A stretch of 42,339 bases of DNA from Rhodothermales bacterium (lineage in GTDB: Bacteria > Bacteroidota > Rhodothermia > Rhodothermales > JAHQVL01): contig JAWXAX010000122.1 in the NCBI GenBank assembly GCA_034439735.1, positions 1-42,339 on the forward strand, written 5' to 3'. Below, piece after piece: positions 8,584-41,442 of this stretch (positions are counted from its first letter, which is position 1; each line of letters opens with the position of its first letter). A model generated the notes under the pieces. It was not told where the DNA came from, did no database searches, and was given only the letters and a program-made list of their open reading frames with translations. The translations under genes were made by a program, and so were the position numbers.

Positions 8584-9435
8584 ATGATGGGGAGGTTCGG
8601 CCCTACGTCCGTCGCGCGCGCGTCGCTGGGCGCGTTTGTGCTGCTCGGGCTTATCGCCGGGTGGGGATTCGATACCCGAGACCGTCCGATCGTTACCGCG
8701 TCCGACCCGGTGCGGGATTCGATTCCCGGTACCCTCGTTTCCTTCGAGATGATCCCCGTTCCCGGGGGGACAGTGACCATTCACACCGACAGCGGCGCCG
8801 TTGACGTTGAGGTCGCGCCGTTTCTGATCGGCCAGACGGAGATCACCTGGAACGAGTACGATGTGTTCGCCTACCGGCTGGACCTGCCGCCGGAGCGACG
8901 GACAGATCATGAGGATGCGACCTCGCGCCCGAGCCGGCCCTATGCTCCACCGGATTACGGCTTCGGGCACGACGGCTATGCCGCCATCTGTATTACCTAC
9001 CGCGCCGCGCAGGGTTACGCCGCCTGGCTCTCTGAAAAAACCGGCAAGACGTATCGGTTGCCCACCGAAGCCGAGTGGCAGTGGGCCAGCCAGGCCGCCG
9101 CACCGTCCAGCCCCGCCCTGAGCGCGGAAGCGCTTGCTGAAGTCGCCTGGTTCGCCGGCAACGCCGGCGATAAAACCCAGGCCGTGGCCACCAAAGCGCC
9201 CAACGGCCTCGGCCTATTCGATACGCTCGGCAACGTGGCCGAGTGGATCACCGGACACGACGGCAAGCCGGTCACGGCCGGCGGTTCGTTCCAGGACGAA
9301 GTCGATGCCGTACAGATCCACGCCCGGGCCAAACAGGCGCGGCCATGGAATCAAACCGACCCTCAGATACCCAAAAGCAAGTGGTGGTTGTCCGACGGAT
9401 ACTTCGTCGGCTTCCGGCTCGTACGCGAGCCATGA
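8584..9435 (+). CDS. SUMF1/FGE-sulfatase-domain protein lacking the catalytic cysteines
   Basis: 283 residues with an N-terminal hydrophobic anchor (ASLGAFVLLGLIAGWGF). The domain follows from MIPVPGGTVTI through IGQTEITWNEY, RLPTEAEWQWA, LGNVAEWITG and AGGSF to FVGFRLVREP, the standard formylglycine-generating-enzyme fold. The segment after AGGSF has no Cys pair, unlike true FGE and unlike the homologue at 21273. It is therefore probably a binding or structural member, not a sulfatase activator. Alternative starts ATG 8584 and 8587 are adjacent. The gene is divergent from apbE and 40 bp upstream of an exported Gfo/Idh oxidoreductase, with which it probably forms an operon. Confidence 0.85.
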   Translation: MMGRFGPTSVARASLGAFVLLGLIAGWGFDTRDRPIVTASDPVRDSIPGTLVSFEMIPVPGGTVTIHTDSGAVDVEVAPFLIGQTEITWNEYDVFAYRLDLPPERRTDHEDATSRPSRPYAPPDYGFGHDGYAAICITYRAAQGYAAWLSEKTGKTYRLPTEAEWQWASQAAAPSSPALSAEALAEVAWFAGNAGDKTQAVATKAPNGLGLFDTLGNVAEWITGHDGKPVTAGGSFQDEVDAVQIHARAKQARPWNQTDPQIPKSKWWLSDGYFVGFRLVREP

Positions 9436-31529: not shown

Positions 31530-32084
31530 TTACGCCGTCTCCAGCGTTTCGGCTTGGCCATGCACATGCGTGGCCAAGGCCGGCCCATTCGGACGGTCGA
31601 CCGCGGCCTGGATATTCGGGTAGGCGGTGCTGTACAGATGCTGGGCTTCACGCTGGATGGCCATGCGATTGCCATCACCGATGGTAGCTGTCGCCAGAGC
31701 GACACACGCCTTCCACAACGCGGCACGCAGCCCCCATTTTGCGATGGAAACGCTGCGCGTGGTCAGTTTGCCGTGTCGCCGAACAGAGACATTCAGGTAG
31801 GGAAATGTGCCCGTAGCGCCCTCCTCGTAGCCCACCATCAATCCGGGGACACCCGTTTTGATGCCTTTTCGAGATTCTTCAATGCTCCGGCCGGCGAGCT
31901 TGGGGGAGGTCTTGAGTTGTTCGTCACGCCAGTTCATGGCCGCCTGAAGCGCTTCTTCTTGCCCACCGTTCTGGCGGTCGGCAAAAAACTTGGAGCAGGG
32001 GTTCGATTTTCGCGTGATACGGACTTGCCATCCGTGGGTCGCCCGCGTATCGATGCGGGAGATGTTATGCCTGTGGTTATTCAT
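31530..32084 (-). CDS. AP2-domain protein, probably two-lobed
   Basis: 184 residues from ATG 32084; the frame extends to 32237, but the extra part reads as non-coding. ISRIDTRATHGWQVRITR, KFFADRQNGG and EEALQAAMNWRDE match the bacterial AP2 DNA-binding domain (three strands and a helix). The second half, GVPGLMVGYEEG ... YLNVSVRRHGK ... SIAKWGLRAALWKAC, has the same strand-helix order and may be a second, more divergent AP2 unit. No HNH nuclease domain is present, so it is not an intact homing endonuclease. It stands alone between corA and the methyltransferase; a regulator or mobile-element remnant are both possible. Confidence 0.75.
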   Translation of the reverse strand: MNNHRHNISRIDTRATHGWQVRITRKSNPCSKFFADRQNGGQEEALQAAMNWRDEQLKTSPKLAGRSIEESRKGIKTGVPGLMVGYEEGATGTFPYLNVSVRRHGKLTTRSVSIAKWGLRAALWKACVALATATIGDGNRMAIQREAQHLYSTAYPNIQAAVDRPNGPALATHVHGQAETLETA

Positions 32085-37823: not shown

Positions 37824-38044
37824 ATGATACAAGCCGTTAGATAGCGTATCCGCATCCAGGCTGGAGGCGTCATCTCGGTGCAGGACGCCTCGCTGCCCGA
37901 AGGGGTCCAGGCAGAAGTTATTGTACTCCTTCCCTATGCCATTGGTGATGAAATGCCTCCTCTGACACTGGCCAACATGTTGGAAGCGGCAAAGGATTGT
38001 TCGCCACACCGGAGGACGACGCGTACATGATGCCCGTCGCGTGA
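37824..38044 (+). pseudogene. Decayed antitoxin-like gene (MazE/AbrB-like short antitoxin)
   Basis: From ATG 37824 the frame reads MIQAVR, an in-frame TAG (37842-37844), then RIRIQAGGVISVQDASLP, EGVQAEVIVLLPYAIG and LANMLEAAK. A one-base shift after AAK restores LFATPEDDAYM before a stop at 38044. IQAGG...LPEG-EVEVIVL and an ATPEEADAY tail are typical of small antitoxins paired with PIN toxins. No toxin gene follows. It lies in the remnant of the second integron cassette (left of the attC site) and reads opposite to cassette direction. Confidence 0.6.
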
Positions 38045-38102
38045 GCGGGTTGGGCAAGCAAAGCCCTTTGCCGCCCCCGCCCCCGAAGCCTCAAGCCGAA
38101 GC

Positions 38103-38169
38103 GGATAACGCCCTGCGGTTCACCTGCGCGCCGCGAAGCGGCGTGACAGGTGCAACCGCTCGTTATGCC
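38103..38169 (-). other. attC recombination site of an integron cassette
   Basis: Read on the minus strand: 1L GGCATAACG (38169-38161), 2L GCGGTT G CACCTG with an extra unpaired G, a hairpin core CACGCCGC TTC GCGGCG, 2R CAGGTG/AACCGC, and 1R CGTTATCC (38110-38103). All four arms pair (ATAACG/CGTTAT, GCGGTT/AACCGC, CACCTG/CAGGTG, core 8 bp). The two extrahelical bases (plus-strand C38153 and A38146) sit on the 2L side, as in known attC sites, and the CGCCGCTTCGCGGCG core resembles that of the aadA cassette. It lies 82 bp after the hydrolase stop codon. Confidence 0.85.
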
Positions 38170-39237
38170 TCACCGCCCGAGCGGGAAACGACATCTAGGA
38201 AGCCTGGAGTGGTTGACATCCGCGGCAGACCTCTGCGACGCGCCGGCGAATCAGCGCAGGAACTCCTCAACGTGCCGAAGAAAGGCGTCGGCCTGCTCAA
38301 GGTGCGGGAAATGGCCGGAACCTTCCACGAGGACCAACCTAGCTTCGGGAAACGCCGCCTCCCATTCCGCGGCGGAGACAGCCGGGATCGGATCCTTGTC
38401 GCCGTGGATGATCAGGACCGGCACCCGAGCGTCTCCGAAGTCGGCTCGCCAATCCCAGTCCCCCATCGGTCCCAACACGGACGCGTAAACGAGCCCGCCG
38501 TTGCGTATCGCCTCGGGCGGGGCGTCGCAGACATCGCCGCGCATCCGCGCGTGCAGGGCCGTGTCGTGGGGATCGGCGAAGTAGCCGCGGGCAAAAACCG
38601 ACCAGTAGGCCCGACACGCGGCCACCGGATCGCTGGCGTCGCGGCGGGCCTCCGCGAGCGTTGCGACCCGGGCCGCAGTGGTGCTGTCCATCCATGCATG
38701 CAGATTCTGACCGAACTGTTGCATGTAGGGTGTGGCCCGCGGCGGAATGGCGTCCACGAGGATCAGCCGCGCCGCGCGGTCCGGGTGCGATCGAGCGTAA
38801 TGCGCGGCGAGGCCCGCACCCCAGGAGTGTCCGAGGAGGGTCACGCGCGTCAGCCCAAAATGTCCCCGAACGGCCTCAAGATCCCTGATATGATCGGCGA
38901 GCCGCAACCGCATGGAGTCCGTCAGAACCGTCGACCGACCCGCGCCTCGCTGATCGTAAAAGATCAACGCGTGGTTCCGCGAGAGGAGATCGAGGTCCGG
39001 AGCCAAATAGGCTGAGCTGAGGCCAGGCCCACCGTGAAGCACGATGAGGGTGTCCGGTCCGCTACCCAACAACTGGTAGTGCAGCCGTACCCCGTCGTCG
39101 GTCAGCACATGTCCCTCGTGCACCTGTTCGAGCGGCACCGGCAGGCCCTGACATCCGGCGCTTGCCGCGATCAATAGCACGGTCCCCACTACATAAATCA
39201 TTCGTTCCATGGCTCCAACTCCCTGTTGTAGGCATAA
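38109..39237 (-). mobile_element. Integron gene cassette (1129 bp) carrying the alpha/beta hydrolase
   Basis: Boundaries come from the G/TT cut points: 1R of the attC (38109/38108) and the GTTATGCC sequence at 39238-39231 on the minus strand. The attC 1L (GGCATAAC) is the exact complement of GTTATGCC, as required if both formed one attC in the free circular cassette. One gene, short leader and attC make up the whole segment, the normal cassette layout. No second attC was found on either side. Confidence 0.8.
38251..39210 (-). CDS. Alpha/beta hydrolase (proline iminopeptidase-like, S33), lipoprotein, cassette-encoded
   Basis: 319 residues. Leader MERMIYVVGTVLLIAASAGC ends in a lipobox. Oxyanion loop LHGGPGLSSAY, the YDQRGAGRS motif, nucleophile elbow LGHSWGAG, catalytic Asp in IIHGDKDPIP and His in GSGHFPHLE are all in place. 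A Shine-Dalgarno-like GGGAG/TTGGAG precedes the ATG. The fold is that of S33 aminopeptidases and related epoxide or ester hydrolases; substrate unknown. Expression would come from the cassette promoter at 39261. Confidence 0.93.
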   Translation of the reverse strand: MERMIYVVGTVLLIAASAGCQGLPVPLEQVHEGHVLTDDGVRLHYQLLGSGPDTLIVLHGGPGLSSAYLAPDLDLLSRNHALIFYDQRGAGRSTVLTDSMRLRLADHIRDLEAVRGHFGLTRVTLLGHSWGAGLAAHYARSHPDRAARLILVDAIPPRATPYMQQFGQNLHAWMDSTTAARVATLAEARRDASDPVAACRAYWSVFARGYFADPHDTALHARMRGDVCDAPPEAIRNGGLVYASVLGPMGDWDWRADFGDARVPVLIIHGDKDPIPAVSAAEWEAAFPEARLVLVEGSGHFPHLEQADAFLRHVEEFLR

Positions 39238-39261
39238 CTAATAATATCCAGTCCTTGTCAA
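39231..39261 (-). promoter_or_regulatory. attI-like junction with candidate cassette promoter
   Basis: On the minus strand a perfect TTGACA (39261-39256) is followed, after 17 bp, by GTTATG at the recombination point; the -10 match is poor. The junction GTTATGCC (39238-39231) has no attC-like arms upstream of it, as expected for attI. The intI relic starts 172 bp to the right and reads away. The placement fits a Pc-type promoter for the array. Confidence 0.5.
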
Positions 39262-39409
39262 GATATCACACCCGGGCTGCCGGATGCAACGACGGGCAGA
39301 ATAAAGTGCTTACGGCGAAGGTACGTTTCCTATTGAGCCGTTGTCTGGATAAGAGGATTATGACCTCCCTCCTGCCGACATCCAGGGAAATCCCACCTCT
39401 TCGACTGCC

Positions 39410-39819
39410 ATGGAACACCGCCGTCCACCCGAGCCAAAGGTGCTTTCCCGGCTCCACGAAGCCTGCCGGCTTCGCCACCTGAGTCCGCGAACCGAAAAAG
39501 CGTACGCCAGCTGGATTCGACGCTGCGCCCACTACGACAACCTGCGCCACCCGGCCATAATGGGTGCGCGCGAAATCAAGCAATCCTCTCCCACCTCACC
39601 GCTCACTGCCATGTCTCGGCATCCACACAGAACCAGGCACTCAACGCACGGCTCTTTCTCTACCGCCATGTGCTCGGCCGCATCGTCGACTTCTGGACCT
39701 CAAGGTCGCTCGGTGTCGATTCGGCGATCTTACAAAGTCGCATGACCGCCTCGAACAGGATGCCCTGCAGCTCCTCCAGCGATCCCGTTTTCCGTTTCCT
39801 GGGCCCGGCCATGATGTGA
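39410..39819 (+). pseudogene. intI: Decayed integron integrase
   Basis: From ATG 39410: VLSRLHEACRLRHLSPRTEK, AYASWIRRCAHYDNLRHP and MGAREIKQ, then one base missing near 39584-39585, then LSHLTAHCHVSASTQNQALN and ARLFLYRHVLGRIVD up to about 39690. This is the N-terminal SAM-like domain of IntI-type tyrosine recombinases; the catalytic domain is missing. Beyond 39690 the frame runs to a stop at 39819 without similarity, and on the minus strand a 50-codon frame (39812-39660, MAGPRKRKTGSLEELQ...) overlaps it. It is divergent from the cassette, which is the normal integron arrangement. Confidence 0.75.
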
Positions 39820-40101: not shown

Positions 40102-40203
40102 ACATTGTGTATCTTGAGGCCGTCCAGATCCTTCGGAAAACAGGGAAAAACCTTTAGTTATACTTTTAGTTGTTTTCCGGTATGTAACGCATGAATGCAT
40201 CCT

Positions 40204-41442
40204 ATGGCGACGATCTCAATTGTCCGCTACCCGGGCATGAAAAATCACGAGGGAACGGTCCCGCTCTATCTCCGCGCGTCAGCGGGTAACAAGGTTCGAT
40301 ACGCCTCGCTCAACGTGCGCATACCGGAAGCCGACTGGAACAGTCGGACCGAGCAGGTTCGAAAAACCAACCCCCACCACGCAAACCTGAACCGGTACTT
40401 GCTGGATGTGAAGTCGGAGGCGCAGGCCGTCCTGGCCGAGTTATTGGCCAAGGGACAACAGGTGACGGCCGCGCGGCTCCGCGACGGACTCCGCTCGAAG
40501 ATCGACCCGGAAGAGGAGCAGAACGCCGGCGATTTCCTGGCGTACGCCATGGAGCTTTGTAATGAATACGAACGGCGGGGGCAGATTTCAACGTTCGAGA
40601 GCTACCGTACCTCCGTCCTTCAGCTGCGTGACTTCATGAAGGCCAGGTATGGCCGAGCGGAACTACCGTTCGAGGAAATCACTGTGACGCTGCTGCGAGG
40701 CTTCGAGACGTATCTACACGAAACGGTGAAGAGCGCGATCAACACCGTTCACAAGCGGATGCGATCGATTCGCACGCTGCTCTATACATCCATTCGAGAC
40801 GGCCGCTTTCCCCAGGAGCAAAACCCATTTTTTCAGCTCAAGCTGAAGTCAGCCAAAGTGGAGAAGGGCCGTCTTTCCATCGAGGAAATTGAAGCCATCG
40901 AACGTCTGGAGCTTCCAGCACATTCGCCGATCTGGCACACGCGCAATTCCTTCCTCTTTGCCTTTTACGCCGGCGGCATGCGGTTCTCCGACGTTGTACT
41001 GCTTCAGTGGCGTCATGTGCAGGGAGACCGGCTGTCTTACAAGATGAAAAAGACAAACGAGGCCACGTCGATAGCGCTTGTCCCGCCGGCGTTGAAGATC
41101 CTGGAGTTCTACGCGGATCGTCGGACATCACCCTATGGGAGCGTTTTTCCCATGATCGACGGCTACGACACATCGACCCAGCGCGATCTGCACAATGCCA
41201 TCAGCAGCCGGAATTCGCTTGCAAACAAGTACTTAAAGCAGATCCAACAGAAGCTGGGCATCCAGACACGCCTCTCGTTTCACCTTGCGCGCCACAGTCT
41301 GGCCGACTACCTCCGGCGGAAGGGGTGGAGCATTTATGACATCTCGAAAGTGCTGGCTCACGCCAATGTGCGGGTAACGGAGCAGTACCTCAGGGGTTTT
41401 GACAGCGAGGATCTGGACGAGAAGATGCGGTCGGTGTTCTGA
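40204..41442 (+). CDS. Tyrosine recombinase/site-specific integrase, Bacteroidota type
   Basis: 412 residues from ATG 40204 (40195 adds three). An N-terminal Arm-DNA-binding domain (VPLYLRASAGNKVRYASLNVRIPEADW-like, residues 20-45) and a SAM-like core domain (FLAYAMELCNEYERRGQIST) precede the catalytic domain. Catalytic residues: Arg260 (GGMRFSD), Lys near 282, His360/Arg363 (HLARH), His386 (LAHANV), Tyr395 (TEQYLRGF). The full set is intact, so the enzyme is probably active. It resembles integrases of Bacteroidota conjugative or genomic islands. It is unrelated to the intI relic, and no attachment repeats could be identified by eye. Confidence 0.92.
   Translation: MATISIVRYPGMKNHEGTVPLYLRASAGNKVRYASLNVRIPEADWNSRTEQVRKTNPHHANLNRYLLDVKSEAQAVLAELLAKGQQVTAARLRDGLRSKIDPEEEQNAGDFLAYAMELCNEYERRGQISTFESYRTSVLQLRDFMKARYGRAELPFEEITVTLLRGFETYLHETVKSAINTVHKRMRSIRTLLYTSIRDGRFPQEQNPFFQLKLKSAKVEKGRLSIEEIEAIERLELPAHSPIWHTRNSFLFAFYAGGMRFSDVVLLQWRHVQGDRLSYKMKKTNEATSIALVPPALKILEFYADRRTSPYGSVFPMIDGYDTSTQRDLHNAISSRNSLANKYLKQIQQKLGIQTRLSFHLARHSLADYLRRKGWSIYDISKVLAHANVRVTEQYLRGFDSEDLDEKMRSVF

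Follow-up and report, generated by a model that had tools for sequence, protein, structure and literature searches.

A probable degraded chromosomal integron with a broken integrase gene, an attI site and one hydrolase cassette in a Rhodothermales bacterium

Loss of integrase function has been described at a large scale, since 43% of 1,135 intI homologues were judged inactive (PMC3108266). Clusters of attC sites without an integrase are designated CALIN in IntegronFinder 2.0, and degraded integrons have been proposed as their origin (PMC9024848). A complete integron has been reported in Salinibacter ruber M1 (PMC9024848). We have analyzed a contig of 42,339 nucleotides from a Rhodothermales bacterium (this whole stretch of DNA is called the window here) and found an element of a known kind. 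Very probably, the window contains what is left of a chromosomal integron, with a broken intI, an attI and one hydrolase cassette that was inserted by an integrase which died later. The features are as follows.

38103..38168, minus strand: attC, with R'' GCATAAC (38168-38162), R' GTTATCC (38109-38103) and a hairpin between them (R3 covariance model, 28.9 bits; DNA fold, z -5.5).
38109..39237, minus strand: putative integron gene cassette of 1129 bp, beginning with TTATGCC (39237) and ending with the final G of the attC (38109) (9-base matching ends; covariance-model attC; attI homology ends at 39238).
38251..39210, minus strand: cassette gene coding for a 319-aa alpha/beta hydrolase with a GHSWG motif and a lipoprotein-like N-terminus (Abhydrolase_1; proline-iminopeptidase-like below cut-off; translation).
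39238..39409, minus strand: attI region, ending in GGATATTATTAG at the crossover base G39238 (sister copies at C80:26035-26064 and C137:8802-8831; same position as the attI junctions of relatives).
39410..39687, plus strand: intI remnant, with a frameshift near residue 47 and missing from about residue 80-90 onwards (TIGR02249 in two frames; tblastn of the integrases of relatives).

The two ends of the proposed cassette match each other. The bases GTTATGCC at 39238-39231 (minus strand) are the exact complement of the attC 1L, GGCATAAC (38169-38162). A preliminary description of this DNA had already pointed to this exact complementarity of 8 bases at a distance of 1.1 kb, and the actual match is even longer, reaching 9 bases (GTTATGCCT at both ends of the segment). 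Specifically, on the minus strand the segment opens G39238/TTATGCCT and the attC 1L is AGGCATAAC (38170-38162). There are three copies of GTTATGCCT in the 42 kb, the two cassette ends and one more at 32064. Dinucleotide shuffling of 400 bases around the left end produced the 9-mer in 0.1% of the cases and the 8-mer in 0.5%.

Complementarity between the cassette ends and the 1L is a long-established consequence of circular cassettes. In order to gauge this rule in the integron arrays of related genomes, we compared the first bases of the cassettes with the 1L of whichever attC was detected next. Agreement over at least 9 bases was found in 44% of 39 successive attC pairs against 0.7% of mismatched pairs. 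For at least 7 bases the values were 49% and 10%, a weaker contrast due to the resemblance of attC cores to one another. Some of the pairs taken as successive probably were not, with attCs in between left undetected or one detected site being false. The 9-base agreement of the ends is informative and a match of the core alone is a weaker sign. The earlier statement that such a match is "predicted only if" both ends were joined in a circle was too strong, given how often mismatched pairs reach 7 bases.

The attC itself was examined by folding and by comparison with the sites of relatives. As single-stranded DNA, its bottom strand folds at -24.6 kcal/mol (shuffle mean -13.2, z -5.5, with none of the shuffles as good), and an A and a C remain unpaired on one side of the fold, six bases apart. 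Cassettes with attC sites of this A-N6-C type are excised efficiently by some integrases (PMC3053210). The R3 covariance model was built from 22 attC sites of relatives, found by folding in 20 integron regions of genomes that carry integron integrases, with the site of the window left out. In an unfiltered search of the window and contig C233, its top match was 38103-38168 on the minus strand (28.9 bits, E 7.8e-5). The site is absent from the matches of the filtered R3 search of the whole genome, and the genome-wide attC count is therefore a lower bound. Two previous models were set aside: R1, with a structure predicted automatically (6 pairs), was dropped, and R2 (9 sequences) was too narrow, missing the site of the window with filters and giving 14.9 bits without them. 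An Rfam scan gave tRNA only. The attC is short (66 bases), the sole one at the locus, and scores below most attCs of relatives. It is located 3' of the hydrolase gene and in the same orientation, as in a cassette.

On the other side of the cassette we found the remains of an integrase gene. The integron integrase profile TIGR02249 matches the plus strand at 39440-39580 and at 39577-39687, in different frames. By tblastn, the integrases of relatives align to this remnant at 24-65% identity up to about residue 80-90, with no match beyond. Hence the remnant amounts to about 80-90 of 315 residues, without the catalytic C-terminal part, and by its sequence the integrase of this locus is to be regarded as dead. 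No match to TIGR02249 above the family cut-off, as an intact integrase would give, was found anywhere in the 5.13-Mb assembly; other recombinases of the genome (C205, C291) match this profile weakly. Being frame-shifted and truncated, the remnant places the locus among the degraded integrons and not the complete ones.

The remnant and the cassette are divergent and separated by 172 bases, the arrangement of an integron platform with attI beside intI. A gap of this kind next to a divergent intI is the place of the attI, and the cassette thus occupies the first position after this attI. In relatives with intact integrases, attI and cassette join at ATATAATTATAG-GTTATGC or a similar sequence, about 160-250 bases upstream of the first residue of the profile. 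In the window the corresponding distance, measured from the junction GGATATTATTA-GTTATGCC, is 201 bases, inside that range. The preliminary description overlooked both the attI and the intI remnant, and therefore gave no reason for the location of the cassette. A scan for consensus promoters yielded a single weak match (39269-39241, minus strand) within the attI, which we do not take as evidence of a cassette promoter; the hydrolase gene is presumably expressed.

The least ordinary part of this case is that one genome has three sister attI sites. A 30-base attI pattern matches the site of the window, C80:26035-26064 and, with three mismatches, C137:8802-8831, and its reversed control gave no matches. 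In the 120 bases that precede the crossover, identity between the three sites is 69, 73 and 72%. After the crossover, identity under optimal alignment is 50-57%, not above what we would expect for unrelated sequence under that scheme. The first cassettes are all different, the hydrolase in the window, a DinB-like protein on C80 and a GYD-domain-like protein on C137 (the last two named by inspection of the translations), and the attC sites on C80 and C137 score 52.1 and 29.6 bits. The match between the start of each cassette and its own 1L extends over 9 (window), 11 (C80) and 10 (C137) bases. To the adjacent 1R, whose outer bases are those of the neighbouring DNA, the match is limited to 5, 3 and 4 bases. 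The longer match to the own 1L at all three sites, the one at the window included, is the pattern left by the insertion of a circle. At these sister sites the flank homology ends at the proposed boundary; the preliminary description had named homology running across the boundaries as grounds against its proposal. In this way, sister attI sites within one genome supply the comparison of cassette boundaries where a relative with an empty site is lacking.

By tblastn, no integrase remnant was found beside the attI of C80. The last 40 bases of this contig (region C80:17000-27664) are identical to the first 40 of C233, so that both are probably joined in one cassette array, in which the genes recognised by inspection are DinB-like, YdeI-like and two VOC-like. 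C137 carries the first 23 codons of a sister intI (MEHRYTPQPQLLTRLHEICRLRH, 8975-9043), at which point the gene runs off the contig end. Past this end the gene could be intact, and its integrase could serve the attI sites of all three loci. A general arrangement of several attI platforms of the same family, each with its own cassette set and no working neighbouring intI, all served in trans by one integrase (perhaps that of C137), seems to us rather unlikely.

The reading of 38109..39237 as a genuine mobile gene cassette is supported, and its predicted boundaries are backed by two independent tests (the R3 model and the sister attI sites). The 1129-bp cassette of the preliminary description was thus borne out with the same ends, both by the R3 match to the attC and by the attI homology that ends at the left boundary. 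The crossover points are 39238/39237 and 38109/38108. An empty site should read, on the minus strand, ...GGATATTATTAG/TTATCCGCTTCGG..., with G39238 joined to T38108. As to the mechanism, an active integrase, either of this locus or of a sister one, would have joined the folded bottom strand of the attC of a circular cassette to the attI. With this insertion, the cassette would have come to lie between G39238 and T38108, its two ends being complementary as a result. The integrase of the locus would have died afterwards, by a frameshift and the loss of its C-terminal part. With the local integrase dead, the cassette would not be movable by the enzyme of its own locus, and its gene may have become a fixed resident.

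Could the hairpin and the matching ends be the product of chance, the hydrolase being an ordinary chromosomal gene beside an unrelated palindrome? The locus has one short attC-like hairpin only, GTTAT-type cores are not rare, and weaker attC-like folds do occur elsewhere in the window. However, the next best of these folds reaches -16.6 against -24.2 kcal/mol, the model of relatives ranks 38103-38168 first, and the intI remnant and the attI are located exactly where expected. The sister attI loci also contradict this explanation, which we consider extremely improbable. Somewhat less so, although still very unlikely, is that the cassette arrived within a larger move and not by recombination at this attI, either in a genomic island of the tyrosine recombinase found at 40195-41442 or by duplication of a whole integron. 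Such a recombinase (Phage_integrase, Arm-DNA-bind_5) is indeed present 0.5 kb beyond the broken intI, and a duplication would fit the existence of sister attI copies. But the recombinase reaches only 22.7 bits, when the cut-off of the integron integrase family is 265, and the break between attI homology and cassette falls at the integron crossover base, as it does at the sister loci. Moreover, each attI carries a different cassette with an exact crossover join. Insertion at this attI by an integrase is thus the reading that we prefer.

The surroundings of the integron remains deserve some comments. The recombinase at 40195-41442 is of the phage type and is followed by a DUF262-type-like frame cut by the contig end; both may mark an island that removed the C-terminal part of intI. 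Just beyond the attC (37838-38045), a short and degraded reading frame (IQAGGVISVQDASLPEGVQAEVIVLLP...) resembles an antitoxin-type fragment. Comparisons with genomes, viral contigs and plasmids gave no close relative of the locus, and hence no empty site or alternative cassette; the region had no DNA match in plasmids. The neighbouring response regulator has distant relatives only, at most 49% identical. Within the order and class of this bacterium, integron integrases are common among the genomes searched. In one genome of the same order (G008) there is an intact integron integrase, with at least 27 attC sites spread over ten or more contigs. The two other genomes of the same family (G001 and G002) have attC-like matches and no integron integrase at E 1e-25. 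The integrase may have been lost more than once in the family.

The cargo is probably a lipoprotein alpha/beta hydrolase of the proline-iminopeptidase type, predicted to be secreted. The Abhydrolase_1 domain is found with an E value of 6.8e-32, and the hydrophobic stretch of the N-terminus ends in ASAGC and looks like a lipoprotein signal. The nearest solved structures are proline iminopeptidases. With this family (TIGR01250; PDB 1azw, 1qtr) it has in common the alpha/beta hydrolase domain, by sequence, and the GxSxG motif, here GHSWG. In contrast to the family, it has a lipoprotein-like N-terminus and a TIGR01250 score of 109.3, below the curated cut-off of 167.65 bits, and is not a proven member. 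The lipoprotein hydrolase of the preliminary description can thus be given a fold and a likely family, while the role that it suggested, detoxification or peptidase, is still a guess. No relatives of the hydrolase appeared in the genome contig or viral contig collections, the closest one in 60 genomes had 37% identity, and the surroundings of 14 of its homologues showed no attC.

The locus adds a degraded integron with sister sites to a bacterial order that, in the genomes searched, is rich in integron integrases. It shares with the integron of Salinibacter ruber M1 the presence in Bacteroidetes, and we presume a taxonomic link to Salinibacter; unlike in that complete integron, the integrase is broken in the window. 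Like CALIN, it has an attC without a working integrase. However, it keeps an attI and a recognisable intI remnant, and its one attC is below the default reporting threshold of two (PMC9024848). Closest are the chromosomal integrons with an inactivated integrase, such as the arrays of Xanthomonas (PMC8618304), where an attI and cassettes are found by a broken intI as they are here; in contrast to those arrays, the window has one cassette at the locus, and two sister attI sites are located elsewhere in the same genome.
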